The translations under genes and the position numbers were made by a program. The notes below the pieces were generated by a model. That model had not been told where the DNA came from. It did not search any database and worked only from the letters and a program-made list of their open reading frames with translations. From Campylobacterales bacterium (GTDB taxonomy: Bacteria; Campylobacterota; Campylobacteria; Campylobacterales; QNZT01), in contig JAMOMC010000101.1 in assembly GCA_027068765.1 (NCBI GenBank), forward strand, positions 1-33,086: 33,086 bases of DNA. Direction: 5' to 3'. This document shows positions 3,472 to 27,132 of this stretch, in pieces (position 1 is the stretch's first letter; every line of letters begins with the position of its first letter).

Positions 3472-6863
<3,392 letters not shown>

Positions 6864-7003
6864 TTGAAATCCCTTATTATATTATTATTTATAGTTTTAG
6901 TAGTAGTTGTATGTGAAAATGTGAAAAACATATCATAACACCTAAATTTAGCTTTTTTTTGAGTTTGAAACTTTTTAATTTTTTTCACAATTGTTCACCT
7001 TTT
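6864..7003. other. oriC: Chromosomal replication origin (oriC) in the dnaA-dnaN gap
   Basis: Four DnaA-box-like sites are visible: TGTGAAAA at 6912-6919 and, directly adjacent, 6920-6927 (TTTTCACA on the reverse strand), TTTTCACA at 6982-6989, and TGTTCACC at 6992-6999. Next to the adjacent pair is TAGTAGTAG (6898-6906), a DnaA-trio-like run, preceded by the AT-rich TTATTATATTATTATTTAT (6873-6891), a plausible unwinding element. From knowledge of the group, epsilonproteobacterial origins commonly lie between dnaA and dnaN. Genes on either side mostly point away from this gap. Confidence 0.8.
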
Positions 7004-8314
7004 TTAATCATCTTTTGATTTAACTTTATTTTTAATCTCTTCAACTTTTACTTTAAAGTTCTCATTTGTTTCTAATAGCTCATTAATCTTTTTTACATTA
7101 TGAGAAACGGCTGTATGATCTTTCATATCGAAATAAGATGCAAGAACAGGCATAGAGTTTACTGTAAGAATACGAGCTAGATATATAGCTATTCTTCTAG
7201 CCTCTACTATGTTTTTGTTTCTTTTTTTTGATTTTATATCACTAGGTTTTATGTTTAACTCTTTTGAAATTGTTTTTATAATATCTTCTAGTGTTATGTC
7301 TTTGTTTGCATCTGCTGTTAAATCTTTCATAACATGTTTTGCAAAATCTAGTGTAAGCTCTTGTGATAGCATCTTTGCATGAGCATTTAAACTTATGATA
7401 GCACTCTCTATCTCTCTTATATTATCACCCATATTAGATGCAATATAATTTATAATATCTTCATTTAAGTCAATTCCATCAAGTTCACATTTTTTCTGTA
7501 TAATTGAGATTTTTGTTTCAAGTCCTGGTGGTTGAACATCCGCTATCAAACCCCACTCAAAACGGCTTTTAAGTCTATCTTCAAAACCTGCAATTTTTTT
7601 TGGTGGTTTATCTGAAGTTAAAACTATCTGTTTGTTTAGAGAGTGAAGTTCGTTAAAAGTGTGAAAAAACTCTTCTTGAGTCTGCTCTTTTCTATTTAGA
7701 AATTGAATATCATCAATCAAAAGAAAATCACACTCTCTATATTTTTTACGAAAACGATCCATCGTCTGGTTTCTAATGTTAAAGATAAAATCATTCATAA
7801 ATTGTTCACTTGTAGTAAATATGACAGAATAACCAAAATGAAGAGCTTGATTTCCAATAGCTTGAAGTAGATGTGTTTTTCCAAGTCCGCTAAAACCGTA
7901 TATAAAAAGAGGATTGTAACTAGATCCTGGTTTTTTAGCAACAGCTTGAGCAGAAGAGAATACAAACTGATTTGAACTTCCTACTATAAAGTTATCAAAA
8001 GTATAAGATGGGTTTAAAATAGTTGATATAACTTTTGGTTCACTTGTTATCGCTGTTTTTGTCACACCCTCTATGTTGTCTTTTGTTTTTATTAGAATTT
8101 TTGGTTTTTTTCCTGTTTGACTCTCATAAATATGTGAAATTTTATCGCAGTATTTTGTCTTTATCCATTTTGCTATGAGTGGGTTTGGTGCTGTAAATAC
8201 GACTGTATCTGATTTTGTTTCATCTTCTTGAAATTTTAACTGTTTTATATATCTTTTATATTCGTTTGTTGGAATTTCTTTCTCTAGGAGGTTTAAAACA
8301 CTGGCAATTAACAA
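7004..8314 (-). CDS. dnaA: Chromosomal replication initiator protein DnaA
   Basis: DnaA binds the origin boxes and melts the DNA. The AAA+ domain shows Walker A GFSGLGKTHLL, Walker B LLIDDIQFL and the sensor block GDNIREIES. The C-terminal domain IV carries the DnaA signature MKDHTAVSHNVKKI. I place the start at TTG 8314-8312: AGGAG stands six bases upstream (reverse strand of 8321-8325), and the first residues MLIASVLNLLEKEIPTNEY then align in length with Campylobacter DnaA. The longer GTG start at 8335 has no ribosome site and overlaps a DnaA box. It is transcribed toward the origin. Confidence 0.95.
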   Translation of the reverse strand: MLIASVLNLLEKEIPTNEYKRYIKQLKFQEDETKSDTVVFTAPNPLIAKWIKTKYCDKISHIYESQTGKKPKILIKTKDNIEGVTKTAITSEPKVISTILNPSYTFDNFIVGSSNQFVFSSAQAVAKKPGSSYNPLFIYGFSGLGKTHLLQAIGNQALHFGYSVIFTTSEQFMNDFIFNIRNQTMDRFRKKYRECDFLLIDDIQFLNRKEQTQEEFFHTFNELHSLNKQIVLTSDKPPKKIAGFEDRLKSRFEWGLIADVQPPGLETKISIIQKKCELDGIDLNEDIINYIASNMGDNIREIESAIISLNAHAKMLSQELTLDFAKHVMKDLTADANKDITLEDIIKTISKELNIKPSDIKSKKRNKNIVEARRIAIYLARILTVNSMPVLASYFDMKDHTAVSHNVKKINELLETNENFKVKVEEIKNKVKSKDD

Positions 8315-8328
8315 AAAAATCTCCTCTC

Positions 8329-8356
8329 TTTTCACATGAAACTTTTCACATGTGAA
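8329..8356. promoter_or_regulatory. DnaA-box pair and palindrome upstream of dnaA
   Basis: TTTTCACA occurs at 8329-8336 and again at 8343-8350, the second merging into the palindrome TTCACATGTGAA (8345-8356). The 78-bp region between dnaA and ruvC thus holds at least two, arguably three, copies of the box found in the dnaA-dnaN gap. DnaA autoregulation or a second half of a bipartite origin are the obvious roles. Confidence 0.6.
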
Positions 8357-24928: not shown

Positions 24929-24948
24929 ATGCTTTTCATAGCATCTAT
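24925..24948. terminator. Bidirectional terminator between convergent genes
   Basis: ATAGATGC (24925-24932), an 8-base loop, GCATCTAT (24941-24948), followed by TTTTCGACTTTT. It contains the stop codons of both the repeat protein and ccoG, which converge here with 16 bases between them. Confidence 0.7.
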
Positions 24949-26381
24949 TTTCGACTTTTCTCTATCAAGTCATATCTTGGATAGACAAAGATAGAAGCTC
25001 TTTCTACAGTTACTCTCTCTTTGTCATCAATCGCATAAGCTCTTATGGTTATTGGAAATGAAGTATCTTTTGTATAGTCTTTTATCAAGGCTTTGTTGGT
25101 TTTTAAAACTACTATTTTAGTTGCTTTTTTGCCAGCTTGCAAAGAAAATGATTTTTTTGGTCTTTGTATAACAATATCATCATTTCCTACGATTTCAAAA
25201 TAGTATCTATGGTCTTTGTTTTCAGTGTTTTGAAATAAAAATTTATAAGCATTTGTAACTCTTTGTCCATCATCTTTTATCTTGTATAGCTGTGTATCAC
25301 GATTTATATTTAAAAGCATAAACTCTTTTGTTGAGCTCATCCAAAATAGTCCAATAAGTGAAGCAGTAAGAGCCACACCATAAGCAATAGTTCTAAATCT
25401 AAAAAATTTTGCTTTTCTCTCCTCTTCAATAGCACTATAACTAGTCCAAGTTATTAAAGATGGTTTACCTAAAGCCCCCATAACTTCTGTACATGCATCT
25501 GCACACTCTAGACAATTTATACACTCTAGTTGAGTTCCTGCTTTTATATCTATATGAGTAGGACAAACCCTAACACAAGAGTTGCAATAGGTGCATTCAT
25601 TGTTTTCATCAATTGCTAGTAGTTCATTGTGTGTGTTTGCCAATTTTGTATGTTGATCTTTTTCATAGATACGACCACCTCTGTGTGTATTGTATATAGT
25701 TTGAATAGTCTCTTCATCATACATTACAGATTGTATTCTTGCATATGGACATACATAGATACAAAAATCCTCTTTTAATTTAATGATATCATATATTAAA
25801 AATCCAGCAATAACTGCTAAGGTTCCCATCATAATATTATGTTCATTAGGGTTTTTAATATATTCAAAAAAATCTTCAGGAGGTACAAAAAACCAGATAA
25901 AATTTGCAGCAGCAATAACAGATAAAATAGACCAAATGCTAAAAGCTATAACTCTTTTACCGTATTGACCTTTTACAATTTCTTGTTTATTTTGAATAGT
26001 TCGCCTTATTCCTAGAATTTTAGTACTAATTAAATCTCTATAAATAATTCTAAAAATTGTCTGAGGACAGAGCCAGCCACACCAGATACGACCTGCTAAA
26101 GTTGTAAGAAAGAAGACACCCAAAAATCCAAAAATAAGCAAAAATGGTAACATATAGAGCTCTTGCATATCAAATTTTGTAAAAAATAGATGCATCTGTT
26201 TGTGATCAAAGTTTAATAAAAAGAAGTGTACATCGTCTATCGTTATCCAAGGAATTATCAAAGCAAATAGAGTTATAATAGCAAAGGTATAATACCTTTT
26301 GTATCGATAAGGTGACCAACCTTTTAGATACTCTTTCATTTTTTGTTTTCTATTCATTTTTATTTCTTTTTCTTCAGCCAT
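24945..26381 (-). CDS. ccoG: Cytochrome c oxidase accessory protein CcoG
   Basis: A 478-residue membrane ferredoxin-type protein (FixG/RdxA family) needed for copper delivery to cbb3 oxidase, probably by reducing Cu(II). It shows membrane segments at about 30-55, 85-110, 150-170 and 180-200, the FixG motif IWCGWLCPQTIFR, and CIYVCPYARIQS. The polyferredoxin segment CTYCNSCVRVCP and CINCLECADAC gives two 4Fe-4S sites. A final Ig-like FixG_C domain follows a membrane helix near 335. It shares a strand with, and lies 11 bases downstream of, the recombinase-like gene. Confidence 0.95.
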   Translation of the reverse strand: MAEEKEIKMNRKQKMKEYLKGWSPYRYKRYYTFAIITLFALIIPWITIDDVHFFLLNFDHKQMHLFFTKFDMQELYMLPFLLIFGFLGVFFLTTLAGRIWCGWLCPQTIFRIIYRDLISTKILGIRRTIQNKQEIVKGQYGKRVIAFSIWSILSVIAAANFIWFFVPPEDFFEYIKNPNEHNIMMGTLAVIAGFLIYDIIKLKEDFCIYVCPYARIQSVMYDEETIQTIYNTHRGGRIYEKDQHTKLANTHNELLAIDENNECTYCNSCVRVCPTHIDIKAGTQLECINCLECADACTEVMGALGKPSLITWTSYSAIEEERKAKFFRFRTIAYGVALTASLIGLFWMSSTKEFMLLNINRDTQLYKIKDDGQRVTNAYKFLFQNTENKDHRYYFEIVGNDDIVIQRPKKSFSLQAGKKATKIVVLKTNKALIKDYTKDTSFPITIRAYAIDDKERVTVERASIFVYPRYDLIEKSRK

Positions 26382-26392
26382 TTTTTCCCTTT

Positions 26393-27055
26393 TTAAATTT
26401 TTTTATCTGTTAGTGGACATTCGTTTGGGTTTGGAAACTTAAAAGTTTTATTTTTGTTCATATCTTTTCTTTTATTTGTTAGTTTTGATTTAGCTAACTC
26501 TTTTAATGATCTAGAATTTATATAATCTTTTAAAGAACTTCTGCTTACTTTTAATCTTTTTGCAATTTCACTAACTGATAAATTTTCACAAATCATAGAG
26601 ACAATTTGGCTTTTAAACTTGTCAAATTTTGATTTAGAGATACTTCCTTTTGGTCTTCCTATGTCTATTTTTTTATCGATAAGATTTTGTTCTCTTTGCA
26701 TCGATAGTAGATTTATTATAATTATTGATGGTATTTTATCATCGATAATTAAATCTTTTTTACAAATATGGACTTTTAAGTGATGTCTAAATATACAATC
26801 AAAAACTTTAGTTAACTCTCCTGCTTTTTGGCTAAAAATCCAAAGGTCATATATTAAAATTGTATCACCTTTTTTTAAAGATTTTAATATATTTAAAAGA
26901 GTTTTTCTAGTCTCTAGTACTTGTGAAGATAAATCGTTGTCAATTTCCGTTATATCTATTGAAATTTTATGATTTTTGGCATATTTAATAATAAACTCTT
27001 GTTGAGCTGAGGTTGAAAAAAGTTTATTTTTACCTCTTAAAAATGCAATAACCAT
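26393..27055 (-). CDS. Serine-recombinase-like protein lacking catalytic residues, with helix-turn-helix
   Basis: A 220-residue protein with the resolvase/invertase layout. An N-terminal fold (1-103) is followed by GRPKG (133-137) and a helix-turn-helix LSVSEIAKRLKVSRSSLKDY (159-178). The catalytic block is degenerate. The family's RVST motif appears here as LRGKNK (no Ser at the catalytic position), and the L-x-R-L-x-R segment appears as YDLWIFSQKAG (both Arg lost). So it is unlikely to recombine DNA; a DNA-binding regulator is inferred. It is 11 bases ahead of ccoG, with an inverted repeat just upstream of its start. Confidence 0.7.
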   Translation of the reverse strand: MVIAFLRGKNKLFSTSAQQEFIIKYAKNHKISIDITEIDNDLSSQVLETRKTLLNILKSLKKGDTILIYDLWIFSQKAGELTKVFDCIFRHHLKVHICKKDLIIDDKIPSIIIINLLSMQREQNLIDKKIDIGRPKGSISKSKFDKFKSQIVSMICENLSVSEIAKRLKVSRSSLKDYINSRSLKELAKSKLTNKRKDMNKNKTFKFPNPNECPLTDKKI

Positions 27056-27093
27056 AAAGTCTCCTCAAAAAAACTTTTTAATTATAACATAAC

Positions 27094-27132
27094 TGACGAT
27101 ATAAATCAATAGATTTTATATTATTATCGTCA
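27094..27132. repeat. Inverted repeat upstream of the recombinase-like gene
   Basis: TGACGATA (27094-27101) and TATCGTCA (27125-27132) are perfect complements around an AT-rich centre that can extend the pairing partly (ATAAATC with GATTTTAT). It lies 39 bases upstream of the recombinase-like start, a suitable operator position for that protein's own helix-turn-helix. Confidence 0.5.

Follow-up and report, generated by a model that had tools for sequence, protein, structure and literature searches.

Within the window, by which is meant the whole stretch of 33,086 nucleotides that was analysed (contig JAMOMC010000101.1 of a Campylobacterales bacterium), an open reading frame of 220 codons with an ATG start is found on the minus strand. 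With the stop codon ending at 26393 and the ATG of ccoG beginning at 26381, the two genes are separated by the 11 bp given in the initial annotation. The features of the locus are as follows.

24945..26381, minus strand: ccoG, a RdxA/FixG-type cupric reductase of cbb3 oxidase assembly (TIGR02745), presumed to be cotranscribed with the 220-aa reading frame
26393..27055, minus strand: non-catalytic serine-recombinase-like protein of 220 aa, putative transcriptional repressor (profile, alignment, structure model)
Residues 1-127 of this protein: resolvase-like domain with a shortened helix E
Residues 133-137: GRPKG hinge
Residues ~145-198: helix-turn-helix (HTH) and an extra helix
C-terminal tail: bears the invariant C213; C87 is invariant as well
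27081..27109, minus strand: Sigma70-like promoter TTGATT-17-TATAAT, with a TG before the -10; its -35 and spacer lie under the operator
27094..27132, minus strand: putative operator, inverted repeat of 39 bp, TGACGATAATAATATAAAATCTATTGATTTATATCGTCA (motif, relatives, shuffles)
27126..27132, minus strand: upstream half-site TGACGAT, conserved in relatives
27094..27100, minus strand: downstream half-site ATCGTCA, within the -35/-10 spacer, conserved in relatives

The product of ccoG scored 473.7 bits with TIGR02745 (cut-off 316.7), and CcoG is a cupric reductase serving cbb3 assembly (PMC8267372). Elsewhere in the window, a dnaA-dnaN-gyrB cluster was recognised by eye at 3472-8335, so the window is probably near the replication origin. 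A fragment resembling an IS630-type transposase lies at the contig end (379-675, by eye).

The 220-aa protein matched the Pfam Resolvase model PF00239 with 29.3 bits (cut-off 23.3), and HTH models weakly. A Foldseek search with an AlphaFold model returned the DNA complexes of gamma-delta and Tn3 resolvases as top PDB matches (1gdt and 5cy1, E 6e-7); the model is modest (pLDDT 64, from a 5-sequence alignment), does not place the cysteine tail, and has a helix E spanning residues 110-127 only. The proposal that a resolvase-type domain and an HTH were retained is thus borne out, and judging from profile and model the protein is by descent a member of the resolvase/invertase (small serine recombinase) superfamily.

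Alignment of the window protein with gamma-delta resolvase revealed that the nucleophile S10 is replaced by K, D67 by W, R68 by I and R71 by Q, whereas R8, Q19 and R45 are retained, and that some 13 residues of helix E are deleted. The nucleophilic serine and both arginines of the LDRLxR block are therefore lost, as had been read from the sequence. The survey was extended to 47 full-length orthologues from many Campylobacterales families, aligned with the same resolvase. None of them has Ser at position S10 (K in 19, R in 8, and D, V or others in the rest) or Arg at R68, where V, T, A, S and others are found, and only 3/47 have Arg at R71. R8 is kept in 41, Q19 in 45 and R45 in all 47. Common to all is a deletion of about 13 residues in helix E, a helix that ordinarily extends to the minor groove. 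In contrast, intact invertases of the same genome group (L056, L058-L060, L064) retain the Ser and both Arg, and the active relatives L058 and L064 have a full helix E as well. The alignment contained no conserved replacement Ser or Arg, and relocated catalytic residues were therefore rejected.

The retained fold, with R8, Q19, R45 and the HTH, and a repeat that resembles a two-half-site recombination site, could suggest an active site-specific recombinase with an unusual active site, the repeat serving for inversion or resolution. We consider this highly improbable: the nucleophile, R68 and the end of helix E are missing in every orthologue, no substitute serine is conserved, and a single operator is conserved at a fixed promoter position instead of paired sites.

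Nor does the gene look like a relic that stands ahead of ccoG by chance. Its catalytic residues are lost and its sequence is strongly diverged between families, as might be expected of a decaying gene, but the reading frame is intact in nearly all relatives, and pairwise dN/dS between close orthologues was 0.05-0.14, a sign of strong purifying selection on the non-catalytic protein. In one genome (G059, L213:3312-5600), the linked ccoG has decayed, with 12 stops, while the recombinase-like gene is intact. With these data, decay is an explanation to which we give almost no credence. In G059 the oxidoreductase gene after the linked ccoG has decayed as well, and a second, intact ccoG is present elsewhere in the genome.

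A search of 99 relatives yielded 45 full-length orthologues and a partial one (G017). Linkage with ccoG, proposed for a survey of relatives, proved nearly universal: in 43 of the 45 testable genomes, ccoG is the next gene downstream and has the same orientation. Genome G084, where a contig edge intervenes, is outside this count, and the same linkage was seen in two further MAGs (L033, L034) and in G123. The exceptions are G068 and G037, both of family f17, where the gene is located elsewhere. When 101 genomes were drawn evenly from the phylum, the family was present in a minority, every match falling inside the same order; some of the 22 matches were invertases or Arcobacteraceae-like paralogues. 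A match in G142, an intact invertase, was rejected as a family member.

Inspection of the upstream region confirmed an exact inverted repeat, TGACGATA (27094-27101) and TATCGTCA (27125-27132). Its presence had been correctly noted, and only its extent was understated: the arms span 39 bp, and span and position are kept in relatives. The motif TGACGAT-N25-ATCGTCA occurs once in the window, where shuffled sequence predicts 0 copies, and its exact form once in the 2.3-Mb genome. The promoter-like sequence TTGATT-17-TATAAT is the best of the region. Ahead of nearly every copy of the gene, a consensus TGRCG-N29-CGYCA covers the -35 and the spacer; typically the downstream half-site follows TTGAC and is itself followed by a TATAAT-like -10. 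A span of 39 bp is clearly favoured: at least 11 of the 12 half-site bases were matched with the 39-bp span in 24 of 47 upstream regions, with 38 bp in 8 and with 40 bp in 4 (0-5 for any other span), and the 38- and 40-bp spans are found in some lineages. In some families (L020, L022), both arms have shifted together to TGGCG...CGCCA. L034 gave only a partial match. A covariation of these TGGCG half-sites with a K to R change in the recognition helix is no more than suggestive, because K-type genomes also carry TCGCCA at cyd.

Of the gene-linked ccoG loci with sufficient sequence upstream, 19/19 have the operator; of the ccoG loci without the gene, 0/9 have it, the latter including second ccoG copies within the ccoNOQP clusters of gene-bearing genomes. 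In family f17 (L047, L048), where ccoG is located elsewhere, the operator still accompanies the gene. The operator therefore goes with the recombinase-like protein and not with ccoG. Binding of the repeat by the protein is something we infer from these associations, which leaves room for the repeat being the site of another regulator while the protein serves CcoG in some other way. This seems very unlikely, since no gene-lacking genome has the operator ahead of ccoG, second ccoG copies are without it, and it remains with the gene where ccoG is elsewhere.

To look for further targets, genomes were searched with an operator model built solely from self-promoter sites. Matches at self-promoters are partly circular, as the model was trained on them; sites ahead of other genes stood outside the training and are not circular. 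No match of at least 20 bits was obtained in 0.57 Mb of shuffled sequence. The cyd operon is preceded by an operator of 20-26 bits in G012, G013, G015, G018 and G019. In G037 (f17), an operator of at least 20 bits precedes a NifX-like gene, a small DUF4492-like gene and cydA (L132), with the same -35/half-site/-10 layout as the self-promoters. The cyd operator was present in none of 12 cydA genomes without the gene, and in only 6-8 of the 18 that bear it, cydA being in the same operon in 3 more. In G003, G004, G005 and G008, the operator stands ahead of genes for a cytochrome b561/diheme protein and, next to it, a molybdopterin-type enzyme.

Family f18 has an apparent operon made of the gene, ccoG, a NifX-like gene, a small membrane protein, a FAD oxidoreductase, DUF4492 and cydAB. 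Its NifX-like gene is homologous to that of G037 (E 1e-12), and its small membrane protein to one that follows an operator in G036 and G092 (E 2e-9). Since members of the f18 operon recur behind operators, the same genes are tied to the protein either by operon or by operator. The small membrane protein (L211:5475-5690, L131:2294-2500) has a single helix and 69-80 aa, is without Pfam match, and is regulon-linked in two families. Also in G036 (L134:2412-2917), a strong operator lies upstream of a DUF6858 gene, possibly a further target. Weak matches in four genomes lacking the gene (G058, G075, G031, G097) were taken as chance; they fall in coding regions or have no adjacent respiratory regulon gene, except for a Nuo-like ORF at G075.

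For the window's own genome, the model gave a single convincing site, at the gene's own promoter. There, ccoN is present without an operator in the model search, cydA is absent, and no b561 target was found in a search that had no positive control. A broad regulon was therefore rejected for this genome, and the local function may be autoregulation together with ccoG alone.

The position of the operator bears on the sign of the regulation. One half-site lies upstream of the -35, and some promoters (f16, f4, G013) have additional half-sites or a second site nearby that would suit cooperative or looped complexes, as expected if the protein were an activator or an architectural, DNA-looping protein instead of a simple repressor. 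Against this, the downstream half-site occupies the region between -35 and -10 in near-consensus promoters with 17-bp spacing, and at the cyd and f17 sites a -10-like element is inside the operator, a repressor position. Promoters of the MerR type have spacers of 19-20 bp, and MerR-like activation is disfavoured because the spacer is 17 bp here. An activating or looping role is therefore unlikely, though less so than the other alternatives, and repression is what we infer from operator position.

Exactly two cysteines, C87 and the tail residue C213, are invariant in 45 of the 47 members; the two others, f17 members not placed beside ccoG, are without both. The active serine recombinases in the alignment have neither. 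The natural guess would be a switch that responds to Cu(I) or redox state through this pair. The f17 members (L047, L048, L110, L132; G068, G037) have lost cysteines and tail and kept the operator. In G068, genes for PCuAC-like and Sco-like copper chaperones adjoin the recombinase-like gene.

Computation thus establishes the loss of catalysis, the purifying selection, the linkage, an operator over the promoter that tracks the gene, and additional operators at respiratory genes. The most plausible scenario is that Campylobacterales domesticated a chromosomal serine recombinase (resolvase/invertase type), turning it into a repressor that binds DNA without cutting it. As a dimer, it would bind the 39-bp repeat, whose half-sites TGACGA and TCGTCA lie on either side of the -35 and occupy the -35/-10 spacer of the gene's own promoter; because of this arrangement, RNA polymerase is proposed to be blocked and the bicistron with ccoG to be autoregulated. 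In relatives, the same protein would control a small respiratory regulon, in one operon or through further operator copies, comprising cytochrome bd oxidase, the FAD oxidoreductase, and the diheme/cytochrome b561 protein with its molybdopterin enzyme. Most plausibly, C87 and C213 would sense thiol redox state or Cu(I), and a failure of copper supply or of cbb3 function might then derepress ccoG and a copper-free oxidase. Self-promoter autoregulation is an ability already present in Tn3 resolvase, to which this family would have added respiratory targets.

On these sequence data, it appears likely to us that the protein descends from a recombinase and represses its own gene along with ccoG and alternative-oxidase genes, its cysteine pair perhaps serving as a sensor of redox state or Cu(I), and the family probably controls respiratory-oxidase genes across many Campylobacterales families. 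The initial annotation had suggested a recombinase turned into a transcription factor for cbb3 oxidase assembly. Catalytic loss, linkage and operator support the conversion, with regulation itself predicted; the scope was probably too narrow, because relatives carry the same operator ahead of cytochrome bd and other respiratory operons. Cytochrome bd has no copper requirement. A bolder version, in which a two-cysteine copper/redox sensor derived from a serine recombinase represses ccoG and cytochrome bd and thereby switches Campylobacterales between copper-dependent cbb3 and copper-free bd respiration, is tentative, and we regard it as somewhat less likely than not.

In a phylogenetic tree, the family grouped with an Arcobacteraceae-like non-catalytic paralogue (support 1.0), itself a clade apart. 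The family sits on a long branch with poor support at its own basal node (0.48), and f17 falls among its other members, with moderate support. We rejected the idea that the dead resolvase of the Arcobacteraceae-like genomes (L050-L055) is the same gene: it keeps helix E, precedes rplI-hslVU and belongs to the separate clade. In these paralogues (L053, L055, L214, L215), R68 is lost, Ser is mostly lost and helix E is kept; they are conserved before rplI-hslV-hslU, divergent from ubiX, with TTTTGTATAA repeats upstream, and are candidates for a second domestication.

A literature search, from which subscription papers were mostly absent, found no paper combining ccoG and resolvase and no host transcription factor derived from a serine recombinase. 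A review on how respiration is regulated in Campylobacterota mentions neither recombinase nor invertase nor CcoG (PMC6682613). The family is likely, though not proven, to be novel. It would be easily overlooked, because its members would score as resolvases or recombinases with the usual models. If the proposal is right, the family would be a clear example of a serine recombinase that gave up catalysis to serve its host as a transcription factor, now fixed in many families, and Campylobacterota would gain a regulator of terminal-oxidase genes belonging to a new transcription-factor family. The operator, the cysteine pair and the natural variants of f17 make the hypothesis directly testable.

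Among known systems, regulators of the CueR type are two-cysteine Cu(I) sensors with a MerR fold, and are activators. The 220-aa family resembles them in its predicted DNA binding, its invariant cysteine pair and its linkage to copper genes; it differs in being neither of the MerR fold nor an activator by our proposal, and copper binding is hypothetical in its case. The nearest curated family was that of the Mpi-type DNA invertases (NCBIfam NF009949), with 54.9 bits, far below the cut-off of 272, and by this measure the protein appears to fall outside it. The domain order is the same in both, but active relatives in the same genomes (L058, L064) keep Ser, both Arg and the full helix E. The TnpR resolvase of Tn3/gamma-delta binds res and thereby represses tnpA and tnpR (PMC7157771). 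The 220-aa protein shares with it the fold, the HTH and, presumably, autoregulation by sites over its own promoter. Unlike TnpR, which is active and transposon-borne, it is non-catalytic, has a cut helix E and is chromosomal, among respiratory genes. The one comparable case of a recombinase turned regulator met in the literature search is MrpR (YopR), the master repressor of phage SP-beta and a dead tyrosine recombinase (PMC10516654). Both would use a recombinase fold without catalysis as a DNA-binding repressor, MrpR being of the tyrosine class and acting in phage lysogeny, whereas the family described here is of the serine class and would act in host respiration.
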